Assembly (NCBI GenBank): GCA_002171515.1
Contig: NHEP01000132.1
Span: 1-42,996 of the forward strand
DNA from: a bacterium TMED88
GTDB lineage: Bacteria; Myxococcota_A; UBA9160; UBA4427
Reading direction: 5' to 3'
Length of the DNA stretch: 42,996 nucleotides
Shown here: positions 1 through 41,651 of the stretch, piece after piece
Layout: each line of letters begins with the position of its first letter
Numbering within the stretch: position 1 is the stretch's first letter
Position numbers and translations under genes: made by a program
The notes under the pieces: generated by a model
What the model saw: only the letters and a program-made list of their open reading frames with translations
Told to the model about the DNA's origin: nothing
The model's database searches: none

Positions 1-477
1 CAAGGGGCCCAAGTCGGCCGACGATGCAACGTGGGTGGCGGTAGCTTTATCGAGTCAAAAGCCGTTATCGGAGACGACTGTACGATCAAGAACGGAGTCC
101 AAGTTTGGGATGGCGTTCGTCTGGGCAATCATGTTTTTGTCGGTCCCAATGCAACCTTTACCAATGATTTGCGACCTCGTGCGGGTCAGGGTCCGAGCAC
201 CTTTGACTTGATTGAAACTGAGGTTCAGAGTGGTGTGACGATTGGAGCCAACGCCACGATCTTGTGCGGTATTAAATTGGGCGCGAATTCCTTTGTTGCG
301 GCTGGGGCGGTCGTGACTCGGGATGTGCCGGCCCATGCCATGGTCGTCGGCTCTCCGGCACGAACTCGAGGCTGGGTCTGTCGATGCGGAGCTTCTTTGC
401 CCGAAAACCTCGCTTGCGAGTGTGGTCGCCGTTACCGTCTTCATGATGCGCAATCTGGTCTTTTGGCTGAGGAATGA
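1..477 (+). CDS. Sugar N-acetyltransferase, left-handed beta-helix (5' truncated)
   Basis: The frame is open at base 1, and the residues before the first in-frame start codon (GTG at 31) already fit the family (GAQVGRRCN), so the true start lies left of the window. The visible 158 residues are hexapeptide repeats (AVIGDD, GVRLGN, GVTIGA, GIKLGA) followed by AGAVVTRDVP and VGSPAR, the usual end of nucleotide-sugar acetyltransferases of the WbpD/WlbB/FdtC kind. These acetylate an amino-sugar nucleotide from acetyl-CoA in the cytoplasm. The last 35 residues carry two CxC pairs (VCRCG and CECGRRY) that look like a small zinc knuckle; similar tails occur in this family. It sits 27 nt before the STT3-like gene on the same strand, so a role in making a sugar for glycan assembly is likely. 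The exact substrate cannot be told. Confidence 0.88.
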   Translation, partial: QGAQVGRRCNVGGGSFIESKAVIGDDCTIKNGVQVWDGVRLGNHVFVGPNATFTNDLRPRAGQGPSTFDLIETEVQSGVTIGANATILCGIKLGANSFVAAGAVVTRDVPAHAMVVGSPARTRGWVCRCGASLPENLACECGRRYRLHDAQSGLLAEE

Positions 478-488
478 GTCCACGCCTT

Positions 489-495
489 GGGAGGA
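489..495 (+). promoter_or_regulatory. Ribosome binding site deciding the start of the STT3-like gene
   Basis: GGGAGGA lies 9 nt before the GTG at 505. The longer in-frame option, TTG at 487, precedes this site and has no Shine-Dalgarno sequence of its own, so GTG 505 is preferred. Confidence 0.65.
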
Positions 496-504
496 TTTCT
501 CCTC

Positions 505-2781
505 GTGAGCGGCTTTGACCTACGGAGTCGTCTGCCCGCAGTAGCTGGTCTGATCGTGCTGACGACCGGGGCGTTTCTCATTCGTGCGCTTGGCTTTGAG
601 TATGTCTTCGTGGGTGATGAAGTCGTTTTTCCGCCGGCAGACCCTCAGTATCACCTGCGCCGCGCTTTTTTCACAATGACGCAGTTCCCCGACGTGTTGC
701 TCTTCGATCCGTACGTCAACTTCCCGGGAGGGGCGCCCGTGCCTTGGCCTCCTCTATTCGATTGGCTGCTCGGGGCCGGAGGCTGGTTGGCCGGGGGAAA
801 AACGGCGGATCTAGAAAAGGTGGCGGCTTGGGCCTCGCCGATCTGCGCTGCCCTTGCGATATGGCCCCTTTATTTCGCCGGACGTCTGCTTTCATCGCGC
901 CGTGTTGGCCTTGTGGCCGGCTTATTCTTTGCCTTTTTGCCCATCAGCGTCGTGTACACCCGGGTGGGCAATGCCGACCACCATGGTGCGGTCGCTCTGA
1001 TTGGGGCTTGGTTGCTCTACTGTCTTTTGGCGTTGGTCGACCCGGCGGCTTCGCGGGCCAGAATGATCGGATTGGCAGTTCTTCTTACGCTGCTGTCCTT
1101 CATGATGCTGCTGACTTGGCACGGAAGTCTCCTTTACCTCGCTCCCGCCGAAGGCCTATTGCTGATGGGTGGTCTTCTCTCGGGCCGATCGCGGCTGCTG
1201 GCCGTGCAGGCCAGCAGCGCGTTCGTCGCGGGCTGCGGAGTCGGAGTCTGGCTTCTGCTGTCTCCGGTACCGCTCGGTGGCCTGTATTCGTCGATCGCTC
1301 TATCGAGGTTACATGTCCTCGCTCTGGTCGCGGTCTTTGTAACGGCTGGCTGCCTTTGGTGCTTGATGAAGGTTGGCTGGGCCAACACGATTCCAAGACG
1401 CATCTTTTGGGCATTGACCTTGGTCAGCGGACTGGGTCTGACGATTTTTCTCTTGCCTGGGCCTCGCGAAGGACTGGAGTTCGCCTACCAGTTCTTGACC
1501 CTTTCTGATCAAGTGGGCGCAAGCACCGGCGAACAGACTCCGCTTTTTTCGATGGGCGATCGCTTGCAGGGCCCTCCGGCTTGGCGGAGTTGGGGACTTT
1601 TCGCATACGCCTTGCCGGGGATTCCGCTCACGGCATGGTTCGTGGCGCGGAGGCCCGCCGCTCATCCGGGGGCTCGCGCGGCAGGCTGGCTTCTTTTTGC
1701 CTGGGGAGGGTTCTTTTGCCTTTTGGCCATTTTGCAACGTCGCTACGGCAATGACGCTGCGCCCGCCGCTGCACTGCTGTTTGCCCTTTTGCTGTCCGCT
1801 CTCTCGGATCGGCTGGTTCCAGTCTCTGTGCGCCGTCCTCCCCACCGCTTCGTTCCTTGGGTGGCGCTGGGTGCGCCAGCCCTGATCGTTGTGATCGGCT
1901 TCTGGCCGGCCTGGCGTTCGATCTATGTGCCGCGGGCGATTGCATCTTGGTCCGCTTGGCAGCATCCGGCTCAACAGGGGGGTGCCGCTTCCCAAAGCAT
2001 TGCCGCAACGCTGCACCACTTTGCGGGCCAAGTGAGAGCGTGGACGCCTGAAACTTCGGGTTACGCGGAGTCCGGCCGCGGTCCAGAGTATGGAATCATC
2101 GCGCATCCGAATCTCGGTCATGCGTTGCAGTATCGAGCGCGGCGAGCGACAGCGACGGATCCATTCTGGTGGTATATCGGTCGTGAGAATTGGGACCGCA
2201 CCGACGCTTTTTTTCAGGCCCAGACTGAACCCGAAGCCTTGGCGCTCGCACGTGTGCTGAAGGCTCGGTATCTGATCACGATGCCCGATCTGGCGCCTGG
2301 CAGCATCGCGGCCAGGCTGCATGCTCGGGACGGGCAGGCAGAAGGGAACGCGCCCTCTCTTCATCACTTCCGGTTGGTGGGAGAAGCGCCTCGCGGGGGT
2401 CTCTCAATCGGAGCCCTTTTTGAACGTCGCAGCGAGATAACGATTCCGTATAAGCTTTTTGAGATTGTGCCGGGGGCCGTGATCGAGGTTGCTGCGCCTG
2501 CCGGCACGCCCGTTTCCGCCGAGGCCCAAATTGAAGCGCCGGAGGGGCGTCGCTTTATATATCGAGTCTTCCGTCAAGCGGGTGAAGATGGATGGGCTCG
2601 GCTCCGGGTTCCGTACCCGACCCGATCAGGAGATGGAGAGGCGCAGCTTCCCGGTGCGCAGGCGATGGGTGGCTATCGGATCCGTGCAGGTCAGCGCAAT
2701 CTTCCCCCGGTTGAGGTATCGGAAAATGCTGTCCGTGAGGGCCGGGCCCTGCAAGGCGCTTCAGTGCTTGGGCCGAGCTAA
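505..2781 (+). CDS. STT3/AglB-like oligosaccharyltransferase (GT-C, GT66-like)
   Basis: A 758-residue multi-spanning membrane protein with a C-terminal soluble domain, as in STT3/PglB/AglB. These enzymes transfer a glycan from a polyprenyl carrier to a protein on the periplasmic side. Visible motifs: the first loop DPQYHLRR (about residue 46) followed by FDPYVNFPGGAP, the archaeal-AglB style signature; the metal-binding GNADHH (about 157-160); and an external-loop TGEQTPL (about 342-347) matching the SxE-x-P loop. Where WWDYG is expected I see EYGIIAHPNLGH (about 528-539), so the Trp-Trp-Asp that reads the sequon Ser/Thr in known enzymes is not conserved. GTG 505 is chosen for its ribosome binding site. 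The stop overlaps the convergent gene's stop (2778-2781). Fold assignment is secure; acceptor is unknown and might not be an N-X-S/T sequon. Confidence 0.87.
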   Translation: MSGFDLRSRLPAVAGLIVLTTGAFLIRALGFEYVFVGDEVVFPPADPQYHLRRAFFTMTQFPDVLLFDPYVNFPGGAPVPWPPLFDWLLGAGGWLAGGKTADLEKVAAWASPICAALAIWPLYFAGRLLSSRRVGLVAGLFFAFLPISVVYTRVGNADHHGAVALIGAWLLYCLLALVDPAASRARMIGLAVLLTLLSFMMLLTWHGSLLYLAPAEGLLLMGGLLSGRSRLLAVQASSAFVAGCGVGVWLLLSPVPLGGLYSSIALSRLHVLALVAVFVTAGCLWCLMKVGWANTIPRRIFWALTLVSGLGLTIFLLPGPREGLEFAYQFLTLSDQVGASTGEQTPLFSMGDRLQGPPAWRSWGLFAYALPGIPLTAWFVARRPAAHPGARAAGWLLFAWGGFFCLLAILQRRYGNDAAPAAALLFALLLSALSDRLVPVSVRRPPHRFVPWVALGAPALIVVIGFWPAWRSIYVPRAIASWSAWQHPAQQGGAASQSIAATLHHFAGQVRAWTPETSGYAESGRGPEYGIIAHPNLGHALQYRARRATATDPFWWYIGRENWDRTDAFFQAQTEPEALALARVLKARYLITMPDLAPGSIAARLHARDGQAEGNAPSLHHFRLVGEAPRGGLSIGALFERRSEITIPYKLFEIVPGAVIEVAAPAGTPVSAEAQIEAPEGRRFIYRVFRQAGEDGWARLRVPYPTRSGDGEAQLPGAQAMGGYRIRAGQRNLPPVEVSENAVREGRALQGASVLGPS

Positions 2782-4472
2782 GAGCCTTCGCGGTCATCGA
2801 GCCGAAAACGGCCAGAGCCCACGTAAGAGAGACGATGCGGTTGGCGGAAGCGGATCGAGTAGAAGTCGACCTGTCCGTCGGGACTCGACCAAGCACGAAC
2901 CGCCACCTGGTCCGGAGGACGTTGTCTGGCAAAGCGCAGCAGTGGGTCGCTCAAGCCAAAGGCATCATAGGGTGCGGCGTGGATGAGATAGTGAGTTTGT
3001 CCGTTGCCGTCGTGCGTCCAAGGGCGTCCGGCTGCAAACGCTCGCGGAATCGACCAGATGGCCTCTTGAAGGGGCAGGTCATGGGTGAGAAAGAGCAAGG
3101 GCTCGTGGAACCCCCAATCTAAGCTGATGACTTCGGAGCCCGGGGTCGCCTCAAGCTCGTCGGCGAGGACGGCGAGTGTCGGGTTCCAGCGTCCGAATCC
3201 CGAGGTCCGTAAGATTTCCTTTTCGGTCCCGACGACGATCAGGAGCTGGCTTGCGATCACCCCGGCCAGCACGATAACCGTCGCGAATCGTGGCCACACC
3301 TGATTGCTTTGCTTGCCATATCTCCATAGAACTTCGAAGGCACAGGCGATGAGGATTTGGACGAAGGGTAAGGCGTTAAGGTGGTGATGAGCTCGCACCG
3401 CGCCCGGCAGAGCGAGCGTGGTCAGGAGAATGGTGACGGTTGTGATCCAGAGCCAACGTCGAGGGTCATCTGCGGCGGTTTCAGGTGAGGAGCGTCGCTC
3501 CTGTATGAGTTGGAAGCCAACGATGAGGAGAGATCCAATGAGGGCAAGGCCGAGCAGGCCTCCTTGGAGGTCAAGAGAGCGCGATTGATCGAAAAGGCCA
3601 CCGCTTTGCATGACGCGAAGGAACTGGGTCCCGTCGAGCACATTCCAGAGGACCGCAAGACGATCGATGAAATCGCCCCGATCCGCGATGGAACCACTGA
3701 CCGTGATCAAAGAAAGGGCAGAGGACCACATGGGTAAAGACGCGACGGCCAGCGCCCCGAAGGCCAAGGCGGCCTCCGTTTTGCGGGTGCGGATGATTTT
3801 ACCCACTAGGGCCGGGTGACCCACGAGGATCCCGAGGCCGGCGGCCGCGACAATGAGGGTGAAGTCGGCACGACTGTAAATTCCCAGTCCCAATGCGAGG
3901 CCTCCGCCCACGGCTGCGATTCGTCGACGAATCGGGCTGGAGGATTGCCAAGCCCAGGTCAAAAAGAGCAATCCGGCAGCCCGGCAAAGGAAGTTGGTGG
4001 TGAATGGACCCCATTCGAAACGTCCGAAAAAAAGGAACGAAGGATCGGTTGCAACCAAAGCACCGCCCAACAGGGCGATCGGGAGCGAGAAGACGCGACG
4101 GCTCCAGAACAGCGTGAGCACCAGTGCGAGGGCCGCGATGCCGAAGGTGGCGATTCTGAGCGTTTTGACGGTTGCTCCACCGATCCAGAACGCTGGAATC
4201 AAAAGCTGACTTTTTAACGATCCCAGATAGGCGGCGTTTCGGATGGGGAAAGGCCGCCCAAACCACTCGATCGAACGGACACTTGCCGGATGCAGATTCT
4301 CTCGGCCGGGCTCTAGGAAGTCCCTGGCTTGCTGAGCGATGAACGCCTCATCGTAGTAAAGCCCCAGGCGCTCGATGTTCGGGAGCAAGAACATCGCAGA
4401 TGAAACGAGGAAGACGATCGAGGTCGCCCAGAGAAGGGTCGTTTCTCGAGCCGTCAGGTGTTTTTCATTCAT
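2778..4472 (-). CDS. GT-C membrane glycosyltransferase (GT39/ArnT-like)
   Basis: A 564-residue membrane protein with about 10-12 hydrophobic segments. The first periplasmic loop carries LYYDEAFIAQQARDF, the Asp-Glu signature of PMT/ArnT-type GT-C enzymes, which use polyprenyl-phosphate sugars as donors. A further FFGRFEWGPF segment lies in the region where this group has its second conserved loop. The C-terminal part is soluble and ends in charged residues. Its ATG overlaps the stop of the upstream methyltransferase by 4 nt (ATGA, 4469-4472), indicating translational coupling. It is the last gene of a three-gene minus-strand operon headed by a GT2 enzyme that could supply the lipid-linked donor. 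The sugar and the acceptor cannot be deduced. Confidence 0.83.
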   Translation of the reverse strand: MNEKHLTARETTLLWATSIVFLVSSAMFLLPNIERLGLYYDEAFIAQQARDFLEPGRENLHPASVRSIEWFGRPFPIRNAAYLGSLKSQLLIPAFWIGGATVKTLRIATFGIAALALVLTLFWSRRVFSLPIALLGGALVATDPSFLFFGRFEWGPFTTNFLCRAAGLLFLTWAWQSSSPIRRRIAAVGGGLALGLGIYSRADFTLIVAAAGLGILVGHPALVGKIIRTRKTEAALAFGALAVASLPMWSSALSLITVSGSIADRGDFIDRLAVLWNVLDGTQFLRVMQSGGLFDQSRSLDLQGGLLGLALIGSLLIVGFQLIQERRSSPETAADDPRRWLWITTVTILLTTLALPGAVRAHHHLNALPFVQILIACAFEVLWRYGKQSNQVWPRFATVIVLAGVIASQLLIVVGTEKEILRTSGFGRWNPTLAVLADELEATPGSEVISLDWGFHEPLLFLTHDLPLQEAIWSIPRAFAAGRPWTHDGNGQTHYLIHAAPYDAFGLSDPLLRFARQRPPDQVAVRAWSSPDGQVDFYSIRFRQPHRLSYVGSGRFRLDDREGS

Positions 4473-5077
4473 GAACGATCGAGACCAAGCCGCGCAATGA
4501 AGTGCAGGTTGCGGTCAAAGAACCAGCTCAGAGGGGCTGGGTAAAGGCCGACGGATTCCGTCATCGATTCGATTCGGAGACGGCGCTGTTGGAAAGCGAC
4601 CCGCCACTGATCCTCGGTCCAGTAATGATGCGGTAGGGCGACATCAAAACGCGCATTGCCAATTCGGTCCATGAACCGCAGCGTTTGAGAAGCAAAGAGC
4701 CCTTTGAGCCGATGATCTTTGATGACGAGATGATGGCGTGCCACACGGGCCGCTTCGGCCAAGAGAGCAGCTGGATCTTCTGCGTGATGGAGGACATCAA
4801 CGAGCAGAACGGTGTCGAAGCTTTGATCCGCTTCGGGCAGGGTCACGCCATCAAAGGGTGTGACCTCGATGGCGGCTTTAGGCCGAACCAACACATCGGT
4901 GCCGCGAACCTCTAAGTCGGGTCGCATTTGAGCCAAGCGGGCGGTCAGCATCCCGTCCCCACAACCGACATCGAGAATGGATGCTTGGGTCGGGATGATT
5001 CGGGAAAAATGCTCCGAGAGAACACGCACCCGTCGACTGGCCGTGTAGTTCGAGTGCGCGTACTCGATCGGGTTCAA
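4469..5077 (-). CDS. Class I SAM-dependent methyltransferase
   Basis: The product (202 aa from the chosen start) has the Rossmann SAM motif I ILDVGCGDG near residue 40, an acidic strand-2 end (RGTDV), and the motif LLVDVLHHAEDP near residue 95, typical of Methyltransf_11/25 enzymes in glycan and lipid pathways. An open frame extends to 5215, but the extra 46 residues overlap the upstream GT2 gene and look like shadow sequence. TTG at 5077 overlaps the GT2 stop (TTGA) and begins NPIEYAHSNYTASRR, a natural N-terminus. Its position between a GT2 and a GT-C gene suggests it methylates a sugar or lipid of the same glycan; this is inferred from context. The start codon is less certain than the function class. 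Confidence 0.8.
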   Translation of the reverse strand: MNPIEYAHSNYTASRRVRVLSEHFSRIIPTQASILDVGCGDGMLTARLAQMRPDLEVRGTDVLVRPKAAIEVTPFDGVTLPEADQSFDTVLLVDVLHHAEDPAALLAEAARVARHHLVIKDHRLKGLFASQTLRFMDRIGNARFDVALPHHYWTEDQWRVAFQQRRLRIESMTESVGLYPAPLSWFFDRNLHFIARLGLDRS

Positions 5078-6273
5078 CGCCGGCTCATTCCGAGAATGCT
5101 GACAAAAAAACCAGAGAGGATGGTCTGGAAGCCAAGGGCGGCGAGTGTGACCCCTGGGATGACCCATCGAAGCGTGAGTGGGTAGTCGAGGGCTCCATAG
5201 TCGACGGATCGCCATTGGAAGAAAGTTGATCCGATGAGGAGCAGACCCGAAAGCAGAGCGGCCGAACCCACGAGCAGGCCGCGTTCAAGAGTGGCCCATT
5301 GGTAAAACCTGTCGAGCCGAGGGTCCGCGGGGGCCAATCCTTCTGAGATGGCGAAGGTCTTGCTCAGGAGGGCAAATAGAACCGATTGGAAACCCATCAA
5401 AAGAGCCAAGCTAGACGCGAGCAGAGTGTGGGCGTCGAGCCGGGCCCCCAAGACTTCCGCCCCAGGGAGGGCGAGGGCGAACCCCAAGCCTCCGAGGGCC
5501 ATGAGGAGGAGGCCCGGGATTAAGAACAGCCAGCGGGGGCTGTTGAGGAGAAAGAACCGGAGGGTCCGCCATCCATCTCGAAAGGTGCGCAAGTGGGGTC
5601 CATGCGCGATTCGGCCGTCGGGATGTAGCGTGATGGGAACTTCCGCGATTCGAGCGCCATGAAGGCTCGACTTGATGATCATCTCAGTGGCAAACTCCAT
5701 GCCAGTACATCGCTGGTCGAGTTTTTTATAAAGGGTTTGAGTGAATCCGCGCATTCCGCAATAGGCATCTGTCACCGGCGCATTGAACATGCCGCGGGCC
5801 AGTGCGGAGAGGAGAGGATTCCCGAACCATCGGTGCAAAAAGGGCATGGCCCCGGGGAGAACGCGGCCGCCTCCTGAGGGAAGCCGGCATCCCTGTACGA
5901 GCTCGTAGCCCTCCCGTAATTTTTCGACAAAACGAGGGATCTCAAGAAAGTCGTAGCTGTCATCGGCATCGCCCATGAGGACGAAGGGCCCCCGCGCAGC
6001 TGCAATTCCGCCCATCAGCGCGCTGCCGTACCCCCGCCGCGCGACGTGAATCACGCGGGCGCCCGCCTTTTCGGCGATTTCTACCGAGCCATCCTGGCTG
6101 CCGTTGTCGGCCACGATCACCTCTCCTTGGACGCCGGCTTCCCGCATGGCGGAGAAAGCCTTTTTGAGGCAGATCGGAAGCGTCTCGGCTTCGTCTAGGC
6201 AAGGCATGACCACGCTCAGCTCGATGGAGCTCGGGCTCATTTCTTCGTTTTCGGGCCTGTTTCCTTCAGGCAT
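5074..6273 (-). CDS. Polyprenyl-phosphate glycosyltransferase, GT2 (DPM1/DPG-synthase-like) with membrane tail
   Basis: A 399-residue protein. Residues about 18-250 form a GT-A domain: SVVMPCLDEAETL, VIVADNGSQDGS and the metal-binding MGDADDSYDF (about 100-109), all close to dolichyl-phosphate mannose/glucose synthases. The C-terminal 150 residues hold about four hydrophobic segments, as in bacterial GT2 enzymes that anchor next to their lipid acceptor. The expected reaction is sugar transfer from a nucleotide sugar to undecaprenyl or polyprenyl phosphate on the cytoplasmic face. An AGGAG site (6285-6289) lies 11 nt before ATG 6273; an internal ATG at 6240 is the alternative. It heads the minus-strand operon with the methyltransferase and the GT-C protein, a natural donor-and-user pairing. 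Confidence 0.88.
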   Translation of the reverse strand: MPEGNRPENEEMSPSSIELSVVMPCLDEAETLPICLKKAFSAMREAGVQGEVIVADNGSQDGSVEIAEKAGARVIHVARRGYGSALMGGIAAARGPFVLMGDADDSYDFLEIPRFVEKLREGYELVQGCRLPSGGGRVLPGAMPFLHRWFGNPLLSALARGMFNAPVTDAYCGMRGFTQTLYKKLDQRCTGMEFATEMIIKSSLHGARIAEVPITLHPDGRIAHGPHLRTFRDGWRTLRFFLLNSPRWLFLIPGLLLMALGGLGFALALPGAEVLGARLDAHTLLASSLALLMGFQSVLFALLSKTFAISEGLAPADPRLDRFYQWATLERGLLVGSAALLSGLLLIGSTFFQWRSVDYGALDYPLTLRWVIPGVTLAALGFQTILSGFFVSILGMSRR

Positions 6274-6559
6274 TTTGGGCCGGACTCCTCATGGTCATGA
6301 ACCGCGCAGGCTAGCAATCCCCTCGCGACTTGCTGTCGATTCGCATTGGAGATGATTCCGCAGACGTCGGGATTGTGCAGCGCGCGTCCGGGGCTGGTGT
6401 ATTCTTACGGCCGTTTTATGAGGCTCGAATCGCATACCGATTGTCGGGGCCGCAGGGAGCGACCCGCTGGCTAGGCGCGTCCGAGATGGGAAAAGACGAA
6501 GCCAGGGGGGGGCGAGGCCGCAGAAGGCAACGACCCCCTCAGAACCGCCGCGAGCCTGG
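6274..6559. other. Divergent intergenic region between the GT2 operon and the TMTC-like gene
   Basis: A 286-nt stretch that must hold promoters for both directions. I could not pick a convincing -35/-10 pair. It contains ATG 6486 and a run of eight G residues (6505-6512). Read through with one more G, that run would extend the downstream gene by 25 residues. No tRNA or conserved small ORF is seen. Confidence 0.5.
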
Positions 6560-8218
6560 GTGTCCTGGGGGGCCTTCCTGCTGGTGGGCCTCATCTTATA
6601 CGGGCCGGTTCTGGACGGGGCCTTCATCTCGGATGACTCGCATTACGTCTTAAAGAATCAGTATGTCCACGACCTGACCCTGGACAATGTTGTCGCGATT
6701 TGGGACCCCACCAGCGAAGTGGCTGTGCTGGTGGAGAACTACGCGCCGGTTCATCTGATGCTGCATTCTTTCGAATGGCAGATCTTTGGCCCAGAGGTGA
6801 CGGGCTATCACGTCGTGAACCTGGCCCTCCACGCTTGGGCGGCCGCTCTTTTGATTTTGCTGTACCGCCGGAGCGGCTTGGGGCCATGGGTGGCTTGGGC
6901 CGGGGCCACTTGGTTTTTCCTCCATCCGGGCAACGTCGAGTCAGTGGCTTGGATCTCTCAGCTCAAGAGCTCGGCGGCTCTTGTGCTCTCCTTGTTGGCG
7001 ATCCTCGCGCACCCCTCTCGGCCGCTCTGGGCCCTGCTGTTTTTCACCTTGGCCCTTTTCGCTAAACCCTTCTCGGCCTTTGCTTTGCCGGTTGTGGTGC
7101 TCTTTAGCTGGTGCCGATGGCGCGCGGCTCGAGAGTCAGGCGAGGTCGGAATGTCATTTGGCTGGGGGTGGCTTTCGGGTTGGGCCGTGGTGGTCGGTTT
7201 GTTCGCCTGGGTCGAGTCCGCAGCATTTGGCCAGTCAGCCGGCCTCGCCCCCCCGCTCTATGCTGAGCTGTCGGTTCGATATATGACGATTTTTTCGGTT
7301 TTCATCCGGTATGCCTGGATGACCCTGAGTGGGATGGGGCTTTCAACCTTCCACGAGCCCCCACCGGTGCTCGGCCCCGGCGACCTCTACTTCCTCGCCG
7401 GAGTAGTTCTTATGGTGCTCCTCGGTTGGAGAACCCTCCTGACCTTGCGTCGAGGAAGCGAGGAGTCGGTTTGGTGGCTATGGGCGGCGATTGCCCTGGC
7501 CCCGCTTTCAGGGGTTCTGCCACTGCCCTATCCCATGGCGGATCGATATCTCTATTTTGTACTCCCGGGCCTCATTGGCGGCAGTTGTTTTGCGTGGCGA
7601 GACAGCATCGCTCCGTGGCTCGGCCGCTTTTTCGACCCAGTGGCTCGCGAACGCTTGAAGCACGGGCTTGTCGGGGCCTTTGTTCTGTGGCTGCTCTGGT
7701 TCTGTTGGCAGACCTATCAACAAGCGCCGGTCTACCGTTCCGCGGAAGCCTTGATGGCGGAGGCAGAGCGGAACTACCCCGACGGTGCGGCGGCCCAGAT
7801 ACGTCGAGCGGGTCGGGAAGCCGCCACCGGAAATGTGGTGGCGGCGATTCAGCATCTCCGCGCGGCGCGTGCGCGAGGCTACAACCGTGTTGACCACTTA
7901 ATGGGCGACCGGCGGTACGACTCCCTGCGCTCCGAACCGGAGTTTATCGAGCTGAGAGATGAGATGGCAGAGGATTGGATTGCCCGTTTGGAATCAGACC
8001 CGGAACCCTCCCATTACAAAGCCCGTGCCTTAGCCCAGGCGTATGTCGCGAAAGGGGACCTCAGTGGTGCGTTGGCCGTGATTGAGCACGCTGCCGAGCG
8101 ACCGGGCCCGATTGGGGAGGGGCTTCGAGCCGATGCAGAACAATTGCGCAGCCAGATCGCCCTTGAAGGTCGGCTCAGTGCGGAAAGAGAGCGGCTGCGA
8201 ACGCGAAGGCGGGAGTGA
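6560..8218 (+). CDS. TMTC/PMT-like GT-C glycosyltransferase with C-terminal TPR-like domain
   Basis: A 552-residue protein in two parts. Residues 1-395 are a GT-C membrane domain with the signatures of the TMTC/PMT_2 group: FISDDSHYVLKNQYV (23-36, the DD-x3-V/I loop), YHVVNLALHAWAA, FFLHPGNVESVAWIS, and PMADRYLYF before the last membrane segments. Residues 395-552 are soluble helical repeats of TPR type, including a KARALAQAYVAKGDLSGAL unit. Eukaryotic TMTC proteins with this layout are O-mannosyltransferases using dolichyl-phosphate mannose; a polyprenyl-phosphate sugar donor is the parallel expectation here. GTG 6560 has no clear ribosome binding site and starts right at the first membrane helix. 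An ATG at 6486 would be the start if the G8 tract had nine residues. It ends 10 nt before the convergent TPR lipoprotein gene. Confidence 0.8.
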   Translation: MSWGAFLLVGLILYGPVLDGAFISDDSHYVLKNQYVHDLTLDNVVAIWDPTSEVAVLVENYAPVHLMLHSFEWQIFGPEVTGYHVVNLALHAWAAALLILLYRRSGLGPWVAWAGATWFFLHPGNVESVAWISQLKSSAALVLSLLAILAHPSRPLWALLFFTLALFAKPFSAFALPVVVLFSWCRWRAARESGEVGMSFGWGWLSGWAVVVGLFAWVESAAFGQSAGLAPPLYAELSVRYMTIFSVFIRYAWMTLSGMGLSTFHEPPPVLGPGDLYFLAGVVLMVLLGWRTLLTLRRGSEESVWWLWAAIALAPLSGVLPLPYPMADRYLYFVLPGLIGGSCFAWRDSIAPWLGRFFDPVARERLKHGLVGAFVLWLLWFCWQTYQQAPVYRSAEALMAEAERNYPDGAAAQIRRAGREAATGNVVAAIQHLRAARARGYNRVDHLMGDRRYDSLRSEPEFIELRDEMAEDWIARLESDPEPSHYKARALAQAYVAKGDLSGALAVIEHAAERPGPIGEGLRADAEQLRSQIALEGRLSAERERLRTRRRE

Positions 8219-8228
8219 GTGCCGCCAC

Positions 8229-10736
8229 TTAGGAGGTCGAAGCGGATTTTTCGATCGCCGGGTTTGTCCGTTCGAGACGATCGAGGGATTGCGTGGCAGG
8301 CGTAAAGTTGGGGGTGATTTTGAGTGCTTCGGCCAGGGCCTGTCGAGCCTCATCGGTTCGGTCGAGTTCAATGAGCGCCAATCCCAGATGATACCAGTAC
8401 TCGGCTCGGGGTGGGTCGGCCTCCCCGGTAACGAATCTGAATTGCCAGTACGCCGCTTCGTAAGCCCCCGACCGGAGGTAGACGTAGCCCAGGGTATCGG
8501 CCGTAGTCAGACTTTTGTCCGAAGTGTCAACGGCCAAGCGGGCGAGCTTGAGCGCGCGATCGAAATCCTCACCCTCGAGGGCGAGGAGATAGGCTAGATC
8601 ATTCTTGAGAATGATTAACTCGCTCCCTTCGATCAGAGCGCGCTCATAGAGGGGCCGGGCCGTTTGAAGCTGCCCGTTGCGCAGGTAAAGGTGGGCGAGC
8701 AAAGCCAGATCGTCGGGACTAATTTCGCCCCGCACTTTTTGTGCTTCCAGCGTTTGAATAGTTGCGTTGCGTTGCCGAGGCGTGGCATTGAGCTCGATGA
8801 TGAGCGAGTAGGCCTCGTCCCGCCGTTGCGGGTCCAGAGAAGCAGCTTTCTGGGCGTCCTTCAGGGCGTCATCGCTTCGCCCGAGTGCTTTCCAGATCGA
8901 CGCTCTGACCAGATACAGCCCCACGTTGCGCGGTCTGCGCTGAATCGCTCGGGTGACTCGGGCCACCGCGGCCGCGTTACGCCCGCGGCTGAGGTCATCC
9001 CGGCTTAAGAGTTCGACGATTTCAAGGTTTTCGGGGTGAAGGCGATGCGTCGAGGCGAGAAGCGCTCGGACTCTTTCTTGTCGATTCGGGTTTTGTAGCT
9101 CCCAGCCTGCGAGGGCCAGCGCCGCCCGGGGCTCAGGGTTCGGTCCTTCCAAGAGGCCTTCGAGAATTCGGCGCCCGTGAAATTCTCCCTTGGACTCGTA
9201 GTATCCCCTGGCCATCAAGAGCCTTTCGTCGATGGACAAACTCTCTTTTTCGCCAACTTCACCAAAGGCCAGGGCAGCCTCCCGTCCCCGGCCAAGCTCC
9301 AGCAGGATCGGAGCTTTGATTCGCAGGTTGAGGGTTGTGCGGCCCTCCAACTCGATGGCCCTATCAATGGCCGTGAGTGCTTGGGTGTAGGCATCGCGCT
9401 CATGCTGGATGTGGGCCATCAAGCGCCAGAAGGGTCCCGTAGCCTCCTCGCCGTTGAGGATCGGCTGGAGCGTCTTGAGGGCCTCGTCGAGCTGGCTTTC
9501 TGCGATTTGTTGTTTGGCAATCAGTAGAGTGGTGGTCGCATGCTTCGGGTAGGCCTGGCGGAGTTTCGACAAGGTGCGCGCCGAATCTCGGTACCGTCCT
9601 TGTCCGATTTGAAGGTGGAAGATGGCAGTCCAGAGTGGCTCGCTTTCGCCGTCTTCGGCCACTTTTTCACTCAAGTAGGCAATCGCCGCCGCTGGGTTTT
9701 TGCTTTGGGCCAGATGCCCCGAGTAGGCGATTTGAGCATCGGGACGGTTTCCAATCTCTGCAAACATTTTTTCGAAGAGCTTCTCCGTCCCAGCGGTATC
9801 GCCGTGGAGGCTGAGAACGATTGCGAGCCGCTTCCAAACTTCGACTTGCCTCGGATCGGCTTCGACCAACTCTTGGAGCGCAGCGCGCTCGAGATCCAAG
9901 TCCGCGATGGCCTTTGCGTAATTTGCGGTTTCCTTGAGGGCGCGCTTCTTCTCCTCGTATGCGCCCTCGACCACGGCCATTGACATCAAGTCTTCATAGG
10001 CCCGCCGGGCCTCGACTGTTCCGGGCGCCCAGCTCTTGTAGGCGCGTGCGCTGCCCAATGCGGCCTCGACCCGACGCGTTCCACCTTTTTCAAGATAACG
10101 TTTATACGCCCCAAGAATTGCGTTCAAAGGTTCTGTACGTTGCAAAGAACTCGCTGACAGAAGTCTCAAGTTCCGAGACTGGATAAGCAGAATCTCGGCG
10201 AGGGCCCATTCGATCTCCGGGTTATCGGGTTGCAGGCGTCTGGCCTGCTCGACGATTTGGCGCGCTTCGCGAGTCTTACCATTCAAGGTCAATATTCGGG
10301 CCTGGACAAGGAGGGCGCCGGTCTGTCGTGGGTCGGCCTGGAGGACTTCCTTGATGAGCTCAGCCGCTCGCGCAGGGTCCGAGTCTACGAGGGCGTTTGC
10401 GTAATCGACGGCTACTTCTAAGTCAGCGGGATCCAACGCATGGGCTTCTTGGAAGTACTCACTGGCGCTTTGTGGGTCGCCCGCCTTCGCGAAGACTCTT
10501 GCGATTTGAAGGGTCAGGCTTTGATCATCCGGCCGGAGTTGAGCGGCCGCTCTCAGTTCGAGTATGGCTTGGGCGTAGTCGCCTTCCTGAATCAGGCCAT
10601 TTGCTCGGTTGAGGTGCTGCTCGGCTCGATCTCCACCGGGCCCGCAGCCCAACGCAAGGGTGAAGAGGAGCAGGGGCAGGGCCGCCAGAACTCGCATGAG
10701 CGAAGGGCTGCGATTTCTCGTGAGAGTCGATGTCAC
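8229..10736 (-). CDS. TPR-repeat lipoprotein, PEP-CTERM-system PrsT-like (second of tandem pair)
   Basis: About 835 residues: a hydrophobic signal ending in the lipobox LALGC, then TPR units almost to the end (for example DYAQAILELRAAAQLRPDD and AYEAAYWQFRF). The C-terminal block NDLAYLLALEGEDFDRALKLA followed by TADTLGYVYLRSGAY is the pattern seen in the TPR lipoproteins (PrsT) that accompany exosortase/PEP-CTERM systems. GTG 10736 has a GGGAA site 7 nt upstream; TTG 10739 and ATG 10697 (giving a shorter signal peptide) are alternatives. It lies 20 nt after its paralogue's stop, so the two form an operon. Expected to be a lipid-anchored scaffold in the envelope; its partners are unknown. The PrsT assignment is from architecture and context. 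Confidence 0.83.
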   Translation of the reverse strand: MTSTLTRNRSPSLMRVLAALPLLLFTLALGCGPGGDRAEQHLNRANGLIQEGDYAQAILELRAAAQLRPDDQSLTLQIARVFAKAGDPQSASEYFQEAHALDPADLEVAVDYANALVDSDPARAAELIKEVLQADPRQTGALLVQARILTLNGKTREARQIVEQARRLQPDNPEIEWALAEILLIQSRNLRLLSASSLQRTEPLNAILGAYKRYLEKGGTRRVEAALGSARAYKSWAPGTVEARRAYEDLMSMAVVEGAYEEKKRALKETANYAKAIADLDLERAALQELVEADPRQVEVWKRLAIVLSLHGDTAGTEKLFEKMFAEIGNRPDAQIAYSGHLAQSKNPAAAIAYLSEKVAEDGESEPLWTAIFHLQIGQGRYRDSARTLSKLRQAYPKHATTTLLIAKQQIAESQLDEALKTLQPILNGEEATGPFWRLMAHIQHERDAYTQALTAIDRAIELEGRTTLNLRIKAPILLELGRGREAALAFGEVGEKESLSIDERLLMARGYYESKGEFHGRRILEGLLEGPNPEPRAALALAGWELQNPNRQERVRALLASTHRLHPENLEIVELLSRDDLSRGRNAAAVARVTRAIQRRPRNVGLYLVRASIWKALGRSDDALKDAQKAASLDPQRRDEAYSLIIELNATPRQRNATIQTLEAQKVRGEISPDDLALLAHLYLRNGQLQTARPLYERALIEGSELIILKNDLAYLLALEGEDFDRALKLARLAVDTSDKSLTTADTLGYVYLRSGAYEAAYWQFRFVTGEADPPRAEYWYHLGLALIELDRTDEARQALAEALKITPNFTPATQSLDRLERTNPAIEKSASTS

Positions 10737-10756
10737 CAATTGGTTCCCGTCGGCGG

Positions 10757-13189
10757 TTAGGACCCTTGGAGGCTGGCCAGTTGCGCTCGTGCCGCATCCG
10801 CTTCCGGAAAGTCGGATTGGTTCAGCGCTCGGGTGAGGGCGGCTTGAGCTCCCTCAGAATCCCCCGATGCAACGCGGGCGAGGCCCAGGCGGTAGGCGAG
10901 GGAGGGAGACTCGGGATACGACGCAAGAGCTTTCTCTAAGGTGTTGGTGGCTTCTGCGATTTGACCCCGTTGAAGATAAACGTAGCCGAGCGTGTCAAGG
11001 GTTTCCGGGCTGGTTTCAAAGCGGACTGCCTGCTTGGCCATCTCCAAGGCATCATCGAGTCGTTGGTTCGAGCTGGCGAGGATCCAGGCCAGATCATTGT
11101 TGGCCGCGGCATGGGTCGGATCTCTTCCGAGAGCCGCGTCAAGGAGCACGGTGGCGGCTTCTTGGTTGCCCTGCATCAAGCGTGTTTGCGCGGCCAAATA
11201 AAGCGGTTCTGCACTGCTTTCGTCCGCCGCAGCGGCGCGTTCAAAGATCCCAATCGCCCCTTCGAGATCGCCATCGTTTCTTCTCATCGTGCCGATCGCC
11301 TCAAGGGAAGGCGCAAATTCAGCATCAAGCGCCAGAGCTTGCTCGAATGCCTGGGCGGCTCTGGCGCGTTGCCCGCTCCGAAGAAGAACCCGTCCCTTGA
11401 GGTCCATGAGCGTCGAGGAATTGGGATTCGACCGGATGGCCTGATCGACAAGCGAGATGGCCCGATCAGGTTTTCCCAGCAACAGGTAATCGGTGGCCGC
11501 AGACCGGATCGCATCCAGATTCGCCGGGTCATTTAAGTCGAGCCCACTCTCGGTAATGATAACAAGCGCCGCCTCGGAACCCACACTGTCTCTTCTGATC
11601 TTGGCGAATTCGACGTAGGCTGCGGGATTGTTTGAGTCCTTGACCCGTAGATTGTTGAGGAGGGATTCAGCCTTCTCGTTGTCGCCCAGAATTCGGGATG
11701 AACGGGCCGCGATGATGTGAGCTGTGGGCTCAACATAGGGCCGTTTGCGAATGTGGCGCTCGGCGAACTGTTGCGCGAGAACGAGGTCGCCCTGCGAAAA
11801 GTGAATCACGGCTAGACGAAGAGCTGCATCCGTTTCCTCTTCCCCGACGCGCACCGCTTCTCGGTATTCTGAGAGGGCCCGTTTTCGATCTCCGAGCTCT
11901 TCGGCAGCCATGCCTGCGAGATAGCGCCCACCCGGATTGTTGGGCCAGAGCCGGAGCCCGGCGTCAAAGCTTTCCAATGCACTTTGCGCTTGGCCTTGCT
12001 TGAGAAGGATCGCGCCGCGAAGCAGGTGTTTGTAGGCGGGCTCGTCGAGGCTATCTGCGATTTGTTCCGCCCGTTCAAAATTGCCTTCCTCAATGAGCAT
12101 GTCGGCAAGGGCGAAACGCATGGGGGCTGAGACGTTTCGGGTTCTTCCCATCGCCTCTTCAAGTGCTTGGCGGGCTGAGCCGGCGTCGCCGCTTTTTCGG
12201 TTGAAGCTTGCCAACATGCGCCATGCCTCAGGCGTGTCGAAGAGTTCGACACTCTCCGTCAATACGGCGCGTGCTTCGCGTACGCGCCCCTGTCCGTAGA
12301 GGAGGTCGGCGTGCTTGGCGCGAAGGCCGAGGTCTTCAGGCGTGCTTTCCACCGCTTTCGCCCAGACCGCGATGGCGAGGTTAGGTTGACCGCTCTCGAC
12401 GTAGTAGTCCGAGGCCCATTGTTGGAGGAACGGGTGGGTGGGGTAGTCCTTGAGGCAGTCTTGAAAAGTCTGTTGTGCCAGTTCTTGCTTATCACGACCA
12501 CTGTAGAAGTTGGCGAGGGCTGCACATTTTCGAGCCGCATCGTCCGTATTGTCTGCGAGTGCGGCCTGTTCAGACATGACTCGAAAAACTGCCTCGGCTT
12601 CGTCGAGTCGATCTAAATCGATCAGCGAGCTGCCCTTGAGGACCGTGGCGTGATGGCTTGCTGGATCAATCTCCAAAATAGTTTCCGCGTCGACCAACGC
12701 CAGCTCAGGCTTGCCGGCGACGAGGTAGGACTTTCCCCGGGTGAACAGGGCGAGAGTGTTCTCGGGTTCGACGCTCAGAACCTTCGTGGCCGCTCGGACC
12801 GCTTCCTCGTTGGACCCACTGTTTGACAGGGTGGTAGCGAGCATCAGTCCGGCGGGGACCGCGTACCCATCGTTCTCGGCCGCTTTCTGAAGCGGCCAAA
12901 CCGCCAAGCTGGGTCGGCCAGTCTGTTTCAGGGCGATCCCCAGCAAGTAGTTTGCTTCGGGGTTTGCGGGTTCATCGGCGAGCAACTGCCGGAGAGGGGC
13001 GATGGAAGGATCAAACTGGCCCGCTTGATGGAGCGACCGAATTTCCTCGAGTTGCGCCTCGGTGTTGCCGCTGCAACCGAGCGCGCTCAGAAGCCCCAAC
13101 CCCACGAGGGTGACCACTAAAGTCTTGAGTTGAAAACCGAGTCTCCCCTTGGGAAGATCGCCGCGGTCAAAAAGGTCTTTCAGATTCAT
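10757..13189 (-). CDS. TPR-repeat lipoprotein, PEP-CTERM-system PrsT-like (first of tandem pair)
   Basis: An 810-residue protein beginning with a basic N-region, a membrane segment (LVVTLVGLGLL) and the lipobox SALGC, followed by some twenty TPR-like helical hairpins. The end repeats the sister gene's pattern: NNDLAWILASSNQRLDDALEMA, then LDTLGYVYLQRGQIAEATNTL. ATG 13189 has GGAGG at 13201-13205, 11 nt upstream. It is the promoter-proximal gene of the TPR pair and is divergent from the PEP-CTERM gene across a 646-nt spacer. TPR lipoproteins of this size next to PEP-CTERM genes are typical of exopolysaccharide-linked exosortase loci, though no exosortase is present here. The pair most likely arose by duplication followed by strong divergence. 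Confidence 0.85.
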   Translation of the reverse strand: MNLKDLFDRGDLPKGRLGFQLKTLVVTLVGLGLLSALGCSGNTEAQLEEIRSLHQAGQFDPSIAPLRQLLADEPANPEANYLLGIALKQTGRPSLAVWPLQKAAENDGYAVPAGLMLATTLSNSGSNEEAVRAATKVLSVEPENTLALFTRGKSYLVAGKPELALVDAETILEIDPASHHATVLKGSSLIDLDRLDEAEAVFRVMSEQAALADNTDDAARKCAALANFYSGRDKQELAQQTFQDCLKDYPTHPFLQQWASDYYVESGQPNLAIAVWAKAVESTPEDLGLRAKHADLLYGQGRVREARAVLTESVELFDTPEAWRMLASFNRKSGDAGSARQALEEAMGRTRNVSAPMRFALADMLIEEGNFERAEQIADSLDEPAYKHLLRGAILLKQGQAQSALESFDAGLRLWPNNPGGRYLAGMAAEELGDRKRALSEYREAVRVGEEETDAALRLAVIHFSQGDLVLAQQFAERHIRKRPYVEPTAHIIAARSSRILGDNEKAESLLNNLRVKDSNNPAAYVEFAKIRRDSVGSEAALVIITESGLDLNDPANLDAIRSAATDYLLLGKPDRAISLVDQAIRSNPNSSTLMDLKGRVLLRSGQRARAAQAFEQALALDAEFAPSLEAIGTMRRNDGDLEGAIGIFERAAAADESSAEPLYLAAQTRLMQGNQEAATVLLDAALGRDPTHAAANNDLAWILASSNQRLDDALEMAKQAVRFETSPETLDTLGYVYLQRGQIAEATNTLEKALASYPESPSLAYRLGLARVASGDSEGAQAALTRALNQSDFPEADAARAQLASLQGS

Positions 13190-13416
13190 CGGGCTGGGTG
13201 CCTCCGGGGAAAACCGATTTTTTTTTCACGAACGCCAAGCGCAGAAGATAAAGTGGATTGGCTTGATGTTTCAAACCGTTTCTGCCGGTTGCCTGCGCGC
13301 CTCGGACTTTTCGGACAAAGCGGCGCGTGACATGACCAGAAGATCGAATAATCCAGTGAGGGAGGCCACGGGCCCGTCGGGGGTTCCCATTCTCAGACCA
13401 ACCCAGCGAAAAGGCC

Positions 13417-13489
13417 AGGCCCCCGCCTTCTGCACCGCGCACCGAATATCCCCTGGGGGCATAGGGGTAAGTCCTGGCAGGCGGGGCCA
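13417..13489. repeat. Nested GC-rich inverted repeat in the divergent spacer
   Basis: GGCCCCCGCCT (from 13418) pairs with AGGCGGGGCC (13479-13488) with one extra C. Inside this, CCCCT (13450-13454) pairs with AGGGG (13463-13467) over an 8-nt loop. It could fold in RNA of either strand or be a protein-binding site. No U-tract follows, so it is not a simple terminator. Confidence 0.4.
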
Positions 13490-13726
13490 TCCAATGGGCC
13501 CCGTGGGAATGCCAAATGAAAGTTTCCAGAACCCTCGCGAAAACGCTGGACAAAGAAGTGCTTCGCGATGCAAGATGCAAAGGTTCCAACGCGTGGGTCC
13601 TGGGCTTGCTCAGGCTCCGTGAAGGGGCAGGGTTGAAACGCGATGCACCTCGCAGATCGAAGAAAGATCGGAGCAGAGTGGAATCGAGGGCCAGTTCAAA
13701 ATCTTTCGACACACTTCAGCTTGTGA

Positions 13727-13742
13727 GGGCACTCACGTTGTA
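13727..13742 (+). promoter_or_regulatory. Possible sigma-54 promoter of the PEP-CTERM gene
   Basis: The sequence GGGCACTCACGTTGTA has GG and GT exactly 10 nt apart and matches TGGCAC-N5-TTGC except at the first T and the last C. It lies about 95 nt before ATG 13836. Sigma-54 promoters under PrsK/PrsR control are known for PEP-CTERM genes in other bacteria, which makes the match worth noting. The non-consensus -12 base lowers confidence. Confidence 0.3.
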
Positions 13743-13835
13743 CCCAGACGGAAAAAGGCTCTGAGGTTCAGAGTTATCAGGTAAATCGGGCTCGGTTGAG
13801 CCCAATCAAAGAAGCACAGGAAAGGGAACCCAGTG

Positions 13836-14831
13836 ATGTTACGAAAATTACTCGGTCTCGTTGCTGCCGCTGCGATGGTGAGTGCGTTCGCTTCGAACGC
13901 CTGGGCCGGGGTCTTCCTCCCGCTCAGCAGTGATCTCAGCGTCAACCTCGGTGGCAACCCGACCATTAGCCTCAGCGGTAACTATACCGAGGGTGGCTGG
14001 GCCACATTATCGGACAACGGCTCAGAGCATGACCTGGCTGTTTCTGCAGGGGTTTGGAAGGGCGCAGGCATCGCTGCCGGGAACGGCACGGGCACCGCAC
14101 TTCTGACGGGTGTTGCGTTGCTCGACAACTTGACGCTCTCAGTGACCAACAACTCCGGCACCTTCACCCCCGCCTTCTCGACCACGAATCCGGTCGGTGG
14201 TGGCTTGACGGGGACCGGGGCTTCGCCCAATTCGGGCACGCTCTGCCCCACGGGCTGCTTGGGTGGCCAGCAAGGCCTCAACGGTAACGTTTACCTCTAC
14301 GCTCTGGGCACCAGCCTGCCCTTCCCGCTGCAGCCCGCCACCACGCGCGGCGTGGGCATCGGTGGGACCGCGACCGTCATGCTCGGTACGGTGCCGATCG
14401 TTGTGACCAACGCGCCCTGGATCACCGGTAAGGTGCGAATCACCTCCTTGACCACCAACGTGATCGAGGTTGTTCGCGGCGGCAACGTGCTGACGGGTGT
14501 CGGCGTTACGCTGGCTCCGGCTGGCACGGAAGACGTTCGAACGTTCACCACGGCTCTGGGCTGGCGCTCCACGATGAGCACTGCCTCGATTGAGACGCGC
14601 GGTACGGTGACCGTGGGTGGGACGAACATCCTTGCCTCGGCCTCGGCCGGTGGTGCGGTCACTTTGATCTCGCCGCAGCGCATCAACACCGGTCCGATCG
14701 GGCTGGGCAACATTCCCGCCGTCTGGCGCGAGACCTTCGTCTTCGTGCCGGAGCCGGGAACTGTCCTGCTGCTCGTTTCGGGTGCCGCTGGCCTCGTGGT
14801 CATCGGCCGGAATCGGATGAAGCGCAAGTAG
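13836..14831 (+). CDS. PEP-CTERM sorting-domain surface protein
   Basis: A 331-residue secreted protein. The N-terminus MLRKLLGLVAAAAMVSAF...AWA is a classic Sec signal peptide with cleavage expected before GVFLP. The middle is rich in Gly, Thr, Ser, Val and Asn with many short beta-like stretches, one CPTGC pair, and no domain I recognise. The end is diagnostic: VPEPGT, a hydrophobic helix (VLLLVSGAAGLVVIG) and a basic tail RNRMKRK, the PEP-CTERM signal cut by exosortase. Such proteins are usually exported, glycosylated and linked to exopolysaccharide. ATG 13836 is preferred over the GTG at 13833 because AGGAAAGGGA ends 8 nt before it. The gene is monocistronic: a strong terminator follows. 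It is divergent from two PrsT-like genes and lies among several glycosyltransferases, which fits a glycosylated client. Confidence 0.92.
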   Translation: MLRKLLGLVAAAAMVSAFASNAWAGVFLPLSSDLSVNLGGNPTISLSGNYTEGGWATLSDNGSEHDLAVSAGVWKGAGIAAGNGTGTALLTGVALLDNLTLSVTNNSGTFTPAFSTTNPVGGGLTGTGASPNSGTLCPTGCLGGQQGLNGNVYLYALGTSLPFPLQPATTRGVGIGGTATVMLGTVPIVVTNAPWITGKVRITSLTTNVIEVVRGGNVLTGVGVTLAPAGTEDVRTFTTALGWRSTMSTASIETRGTVTVGGTNILASASAGGAVTLISPQRINTGPIGLGNIPAVWRETFVFVPEPGTVLLLVSGAAGLVVIGRNRMKRK

Positions 14832-14861
14832 GATTGCGATAGCTCCTCTGGGAGCTGAGCG

Positions 14862-14900
14862 AGGCGGCCATCCCGATTCGGGGTGGCCGCCTTTTTTTTT
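14862..14900 (+). terminator. Rho-independent terminator of the PEP-CTERM gene
   Basis: A 13-bp stem (AGGCGGCCATCCC pairing with GGGGTGGCCGCCT, one G-T pair) with a 5-nt loop GATTC, followed by a run of nine T (14892-14900). It starts 30 nt after the stop codon. This is the clearest intrinsic terminator in the window. Confidence 0.93.
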
Positions 14901-15098
14901 GCAGGCCGAGCGCGGAGTGGGCAAGGTCTCCCGGGCAGCTCCTGAAGCGGGCCGTCTCTCGGGATAAGAGCGCCTCGATCGGGGAGTGGCCACGCCGTGG
15001 GGTTCGTCGGCCTGATTGTCTAGAGTCTGCCGAGAATCTGTTCTTATTTAGCGGTCGTGTATGGATGTCCGCGATAGTTTGGGAAGGAGGCATGAAGG
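14901..15098. other. Spacer holding the promoter and ribosome binding site of the sulfatase-fold gene
   Basis: 198 nt after the terminator. GGAAGGAGG (15082-15090) lies 8 nt before GTG 15099 and fixes that start; the ATG at 15092 is in another frame. I found no convincing -35/-10 pair and no gene. Confidence 0.5.
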
Positions 15099-21414: not shown

Positions 21415-21430
21415 CGGTCCTCTCCTCTCT

Positions 21431-22861: not shown

Positions 22862-22906
22862 GATTTCAAAACGATCCTGTTTTCAGAAGCTGGCCGCTCG
22901 ATGAGA

Positions 22907-41600: not shown

Positions 41601-41651
41601 GCAACTCATTTCCGCTGCTGCTCAATCTTGTGCAACAGCAAAAGGATCAGA

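Follow-up and report, generated by a model that had tools for sequence, protein, structure and literature searches.

Gene content of the locus

The contig NHEP01000132.1 (C190 in our numbering; its entire length of 42,996 nucleotides is called the window) belongs to a Myxococcota metagenome-assembled genome (MAG) of 5.16 Mb, consisting of 266 contigs and 81% complete. Near its start lies a block of genes that encodes a protein of the AglB/STT3 oligosaccharyltransferase (OST) class, termed STT3-like below, together with further glycosyltransferases (GT) of the GT-C and GT2 types, a methyltransferase, an N-acetyltransferase, two tetratricopeptide repeat (TPR) lipoproteins and a PEP-CTERM protein (Table 1). 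An earlier note, written from the sequence alone, had named the STT3-like, GT2, methyltransferase, GT-C and N-acetyltransferase genes, and profile scans and structural models confirmed their presence; its interpretation as a whole is partly supported. We give about an even chance (roughly 0.5) to the reading that the block is a periplasmic, polyprenyl-phosphate-dependent glycosylation locus in which an AglB-like transferase that does not read sequons probably serves surface proteins.

The genes of the block are found on both strands and in several transcription units. The contig start removes the 5' part of the N-acetyltransferase gene, which is separated by 10 bp from the STT3-like gene; for the latter, an alternative GTG start is possible at 505. 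The methyltransferase open reading frame (ORF) is open up to 5215, and a TTG near 5077 is its probable true start.

Table 1 Genes of the block with their positions in the window and the basis of each assignment
Feature	Position	Strand	Evidence
Sugar N-acetyltransferase (hexapeptide, left-handed beta-helix)	31–477	+	PF00132, 64.9 bits
AglB/STT3-class GT-C oligosaccharyltransferase-like protein	487–2781	+	TIGR04154, PF18079 and PF02516 profiles
GT-C fold membrane protein, ArnT-like by structure	2778–4472	-	AlphaFold2 model and Foldseek
S-adenosylmethionine-dependent methyltransferase	4469–5077	-	PF08241, E 1.5e-12
Polyprenyl-phosphate glycosyltransferase GT2, AglJ/DPMS type III-like	5074–6273	-	TIGR04182, E 6.7e-30
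TMTC-like GT-C protein with weak C-terminal TPR	6560–8218	+	Motifs seen by inspection
PrsT-like TPR lipoprotein 1, lipobox LALGC	8229–10739	-	TIGR02917, 169.1 bits
PrsT-like TPR lipoprotein 2, lipobox SALGC	10757–13189	-	TIGR02917, 239.9 bits
Locus-specific PEP-CTERM protein, tail VPEPGTVLLLVSGAAGLVVIGRNRMKRK	13833–14831	+	TIGR02595, above cut-off

An AglB-like protein that lacks the Ser/Thr pocket

Scored as a single sequence, the STT3-like protein matched the archaeal OST family TIGR04154 with 253.3 bits, under the curated cut-off of 450, and exceeded the cut-offs of AglB_L1 (PF18079, 52.7 against 23.6) and STT3 (PF02516, 41 against 24.5). A profile built from 20 homologues matched Archaeoglobus fulgidus AglB (AfAglB) at 6e-62 in an alignment that spans membrane core, periplasmic core and P1 domain. 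The AlphaFold2 model (pLDDT 90.7, pTM 0.91) includes both the GT-C membrane core and the periplasmic C-terminal core domain. In Foldseek its top matches were four AfAglB structures (7e9s: E 5e-29, TMq 0.77), followed by eukaryotic STT3 and then by DPY19 and PglB. The metal and catalytic residues of AfAglB are D47, D161, H163 and E360 (PMC8342417). Their equivalents D52, D164, H166 and E349 are invariant in 42/42 homologues from the host's class; they comprise both DXD-type metal motifs (D52; D164, H166) and the glutamate of the TIXE/SVSE motif on external loop 5 (EL5), which is E349.

The pocket that reads the Ser/Thr of the sequon is lost. The WWDYG motif aligns with HPNLG in the STT3-like protein, and WWD was found in none of the 42 class homologues, where the position of Asp is mainly taken up by Asn, Gly, Ser or Ala and in no case by Asp (0/42); the Gly that follows this position is kept in all of them. 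Another set of 28 homologues, drawn mainly from beyond the class, retains the second Trp in 25 members and the Asp in 10. SWWDYGH in AglB and APWDxGH, xWGxGH and AHANLGH in Myxococcota form a stepwise series, and, judged from these sequences, the pocket looks to have been worn away step by step. Its other half in AfAglB is K618, the lysine of the DK motif (PMC3703281). In the sequence alignment, AfAglB residues 617–675, K618 included, have no counterpart in the STT3-like homologues. An enzyme without a sequon-reading pocket is unlikely to perform ordinary Asn-X-Ser/Thr glycosylation, and since the defining WWDYG motif is absent, the protein should not be classed as a normal OST, although the locus would operate in the manner of an AglB system. 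To our knowledge, the WWD Ser/Thr pocket is regarded as universal in OSTs. Several genomes of the class (loci L100, L104, L114 and L115) carry three to five STT3-like paralogues, and WWDYG occurs in none of those read.

With archaeal AglB (A. fulgidus AglB-L, TIGR04154/GT66), the STT3-like protein shares the whole-length fold, both metal motifs, the EL5 glutamate, the P1 domain and the company of an AglJ-like GT2; the family name also reflects an association with archaeosortase A in archaea. It differs in its bacterial host, in its score (253 vs 450 bits), in having HPNLG for WWDYG, in the missing counterpart of the DK-motif lysine and in its TMTC-like, ArnT-like and PrsT-like neighbours. PglB of Campylobacter and Desulfovibrio is likewise a GT-C OST of Gram-negative bacteria, but it is a weaker match (profile E 7e-4; Foldseek E 1e-8) that retains WWDYG, and no pgl-type cluster surrounds the STT3-like gene. 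The C-mannosyltransferase DPY19 (Foldseek E 4e-10) is an STT3-like GT-C scaffold that works without an N-glycosylation sequon; however, it is eukaryotic, lacks the AglB-type C-terminal domain and is not the nearest match.

Companion genes of the block

The GT2 protein has AglJ (TIGR04182) as its best family, with 104.5 bits and thus below the equivalog cut-off of 325, and carries hydrophobic segments at its C terminus. By sequence its relatives in the Protein Data Bank are ArnC, Pyrococcus furiosus DPMS (PfDPMS, 5mlz) and GtrB, a likeness that suggests a lipid-P-sugar synthase. Its orthologues are 70–92% identical across five genera. The ArnT-like protein matched no Pfam or NCBIfam family in the profile scan; its AlphaFold2 model (pLDDT 82) shows a GT-C fold and had ArnT (5ezm, E 2.6e-9) as the top Foldseek match, and the ortholog alignment places an acidic YYDEAF motif in its first loop.

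The TMTC-like label given in the earlier note is kept here from inspection, which located the motifs ISDDSHYVLKN, with its DD in external loop 1 (EL1), and FFLHPGNVESVAW; profile searches gave no Pfam GT-C match, no DUF1736 match at E 10 and a weak TPR signal only. Orthologues within the block are 45–84% identical. The human TMTC O-mannosyltransferases (GT105) share the double-acid first-loop motif, the His-Pro..Glu motif and the tendency to a C-terminal TPR region, but possess about 10 TPRs, whereas the TPR part here is short and weak and DUF1736 was not detected. Full-length bacterial TMTC homologues are known from Deltaproteobacteria (PMC7801869).

PrsT-like lipoproteins and a PEP-CTERM protein had also been proposed to follow. 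The PEP-CTERM protein, with its PEP motif, hydrophobic helix and basic end, exceeds the TIGR02595 cut-off of 16 (17.9 bits, and 20.9 in the genome-wide search), but both TPR lipoproteins score under the PrsT cut-off of 312.2 (TIGR02917).

Gene order in related genomes

Named relatives of the host are Myxococcota/Deltaproteobacteria MAGs (for the genome searches, g and f with a number denote genera and families, G genomes and L loci). Full-length STT3-like homologues were found in 43 of 61 relatives, and the order acetyltransferase, STT3-like, ArnT-like, methyltransferase, GT2, TMTC-like, TPR, TPR, PEP-CTERM is syntenic over five genera, and the block recurs in at least four genera of the family besides the host's own; the locus is therefore real beyond chance. 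The eight genes from the acetyltransferase to the second TPR gene keep their order in g1, g12, g4, g2 and g11, and partially in g5, and a PEP-CTERM gene comes after the TPR pair in g1, g4, g2 and three g11 genomes. Its orthologues share the near-invariant tail VPEPGTVLLLVSGAAGLVxxGRKRMK, and outside the genus their bodies are 43–57% identical to that of the window protein. In the tree, the ten STT3 copies from syntenic loci group in a single clade (SH-aLRT 100). The syntenic block came out in favour of the earlier proposal, which is supported as far as it concerns a periplasmic glycosylation locus that depends on polyprenyl phosphate and is conserved among relatives, although the conserved neighbourhood is partly a general gene order, as discussed below.

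In relatives the block runs on upstream into a 3-amino-sugar module, which is lost here at the contig edge. In a locus from the same genus (L040), genes for an AglJ-like GT2, a Gfo/Idh protein and a DegT aminotransferase precede the acetyltransferase. The Gfo/Idh protein is nearest to the archaeal UDP-GlcNAc 3-dehydrogenase (159 bits, below the cut-off of 450), the aminotransferase is related to QdtB and WbpE, and the full-length acetyltransferase orthologue matches a WxcM-like protein (4mzu, E 4e-45) and a lipopolysaccharide (LPS) acetyltransferase (3mqg, E 9e-38). From these dehydrogenase-, aminotransferase- and acetyltransferase-like genes, an N-acetylated 3-amino sugar is therefore predicted. 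In P. gingivalis, the C termini of cargo proteins are linked to LPS through the Wbp/Vim sugar, a 2,3-diamino sugar, and a similar role in PEP-CTERM systems is a speculation of the authors who described it (PMC7468200). For the present locus this parallel is a lead only.

Exosortase and PEP-CTERM proteins in the host and its class

Co-occurrence was examined in 91 genomes of the host's class, 81 exosortase-positive and 10 exosortase-negative, by Fisher tests without phylogenetic correction. The STT3-like gene is present in 57/81 exosortase-positive and in 0/10 exosortase-negative genomes (2e-5; counted by genus, 2e-4). Two genes of the host genome score over the exosortase TIGR02602 cut-off, and 39 PEP-CTERM matches were found in it, 31 of them above the cut-off. 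Contig C146 bears a classical extracellular polysaccharide (EPS)/exosortase locus that comprises wecB, epsI, an exosortase gene and a gene for a GT of the WcaI type. As this EPS locus is separate, the STT3 block is not that locus.

The block resembles the PEP-CTERM/exosortase/PrsT systems in that a PEP-CTERM protein, TPR lipoproteins and exosortase occur in one genome. It differs from them in its TPR proteins, which lie below the PrsT cut-off, in lacking an exosortase or EPS polymerase gene and in having an OST-class enzyme, which is not described for such systems in the literature searched; nor did that literature yield a paper linking PEP-CTERM to STT3. The locus PEP-CTERM protein has a tail (14745–14816, VSGAAGLVVIGRNRMKRK) unlike the one that prevails in the genome, TALLLGLGLxGLxxRRR (L172–L201), as if another exosortase sorted this protein.

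Proposed pathway and alternative explanations

For the sugars, the lipid, the order of reactions and the acceptor we infer the following scheme. Cytoplasmic 3-dehydrogenase, aminotransferase and N-acetyltransferase enzymes encoded upstream would make an N-acetylated 3-amino sugar. AglJ/DPMS-like GT2 enzymes would charge undecaprenyl phosphate with sugars, and a possible role of the methyltransferase is to modify the glycan. After the flip, the ArnT-like and TMTC-like GT-C enzymes would add single sugars from lipid-P-sugar. That PEP-CTERM proteins accept the glycan, as had been suggested before, is possible, though we put it short of an even chance: the block has a PEP-CTERM gene of its own, conserved next to the two TPR genes, but the PEP-CTERM proteins are not enriched in sequons. 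Somewhat more doubtful is the wider idea that the family is a bacterial branch of AglB/STT3 which, throughout the class and tied to exosortase and PEP-CTERM, kept catalysis, gave up sequon recognition and chooses its acceptor otherwise (e.g. through the sorting region, with a TPR lipoprotein as adaptor, or at O- or C-linked sites). If true, a family that keeps the donor/metal site without the pocket would separate catalysis from sequon choice, which could be of use in glycoengineering, and exosortase/PEP-CTERM sorting, whose chemistry is unexplained, would gain a concrete glycosylation partner.

Several observations weigh against a glycosylation locus that serves PEP-CTERM proteins. The exosortase genes found in the host genome lie on other contigs, and exosortase is near-universal in the class sample (81/91). 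The control GT-C family PMT_2 was found in 78/81 exosortase-positive and 4/10 exosortase-negative genomes, and since it is depleted without exosortase too, the co-occurrence that the earlier note had expected is present but weakened as proof; among PMT_2-positive genomes only, the STT3-like gene occurs in 57/78 with exosortase and 0/4 without (p 0.007, uncorrected for phylogeny). N-X-S/T sites in 29 PEP-CTERM proteins of the host genome numbered 55, against 52.7 +/- 6.4 after shuffling, and with a strict tail pattern PEP-CTERM genes were not clearly enriched near STT3 paralogues outside the syntenic clade. The TMTC-like assignment comes from inspection, with no profile behind the label. The genes ddl, larE and gatAB downstream of the block are also syntenic in the f1 family, so that the adjacency within the block may be partly inherited gene order. 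This last point, together with the distribution of the genes over both strands and several transcription units, would fit neighbours kept together by inherited order in the family alone, with no common pathway. We regard that as improbable, as the STT3-TPR-TPR unit is also found in families f4 and f8 of the order, without ddl/larE in L055, L057 and L072, and the f4/f8 STT3 copies next to a TPR pair occupy three distinct positions in the phylogeny. The recurrent unit is better evidence of linkage than the synteny in f1.

Alternatively, the STT3-like protein and the GT-C enzymes might act on EPS or LPS rather than on protein, with the PEP-CTERM gene present since exosortase accompanies the polysaccharide. 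The top structural match of the ArnT-like protein is a lipid A modifying enzyme, sugar-nucleotide genes lie upstream of the block in relatives, EPS loci and exosortase systems tend to occur together (PMC1569441), and a non-peptide acceptor would fit the loss of the sequon pocket. We nevertheless consider this unlikely: the STT3-like protein retains an AglB-type periplasmic core at its C terminus as well as the P1 domain, both well modelled, and no polymerase, flippase, ligase or initiating transferase was met among the ORFs scanned in 31–16583 or upstream in L040. The separate locus on C146 likewise weakens an O-antigen or EPS origin (the earlier note had named an O-antigen/LPS pathway as the finding that would speak against it), and an O-antigen/EPS locus was rejected as the sole explanation. 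Ordinary Asn-X-Ser/Thr glycosylation by an AglB-like enzyme that has rebuilt its Ser/Thr pocket from other residues would agree with the AglB fold, with the invariant TIXE-loop glutamate and with one N-[LM]-T (N109 in the numbering of the ortholog comparison) that lines up in 7/7 orthologues of the locus PEP-CTERM protein within the family, although the other sequons shift. Given about five sequons per protein, this aligned site is only suggestive as a clue to glycosylation. All clade members have other residues at the first four positions of WWDYG, the DK lysine lacks a counterpart and the sequon count is not above that of shuffled sequences; a rebuilt pocket therefore seems improbable, and classical N-glycosylation is disfavoured.

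Other genes of the window and related loci

Two more GT-C genes, 22907–24193 and 29145–30440, had been counted as part of the system. Their neighbours, a DEAD helicase gene and gatAB, are unrelated, and on present evidence the two genes are not counted in the unit: the one at 22907, which barely reaches the GT87 cut-off (25.1 vs 25), is conserved with a DEAD/MBOAT/AlgX region, and the other, for which profile scans gave no convincing family, follows gatB. At 20224–24193, about 12 kb from the block, AlgX-like, MBOAT and GT87 genes adjoin each other, are conserved in some relatives and are likely to form a glycan O-acetylation module. In genome G007 the place that these three genes hold in the window is occupied by two divergent STT3-like genes in opposite orientation, between C45 and DEAD helicase genes (L059:3604–8254).

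Three proteins in or beside the block gave 'sulfatase' Pfam matches (15099–16583 in the window; L040:2036–3703 and 3703–5151). They were rejected as glycan desulfation enzymes, the C/S-x-P-x-R signature being absent in all three. A Thr apparently lies near the place of the nucleophile, and the proteins may be phosphate-ester transferases or hydrolases instead. Further along the window, 34131–36035 encodes one protein that combines DUF4388, a DnaJ-like domain and TPR, and 40026–42728 holds a tandem pair of PilT/PilU-family ATPase genes.

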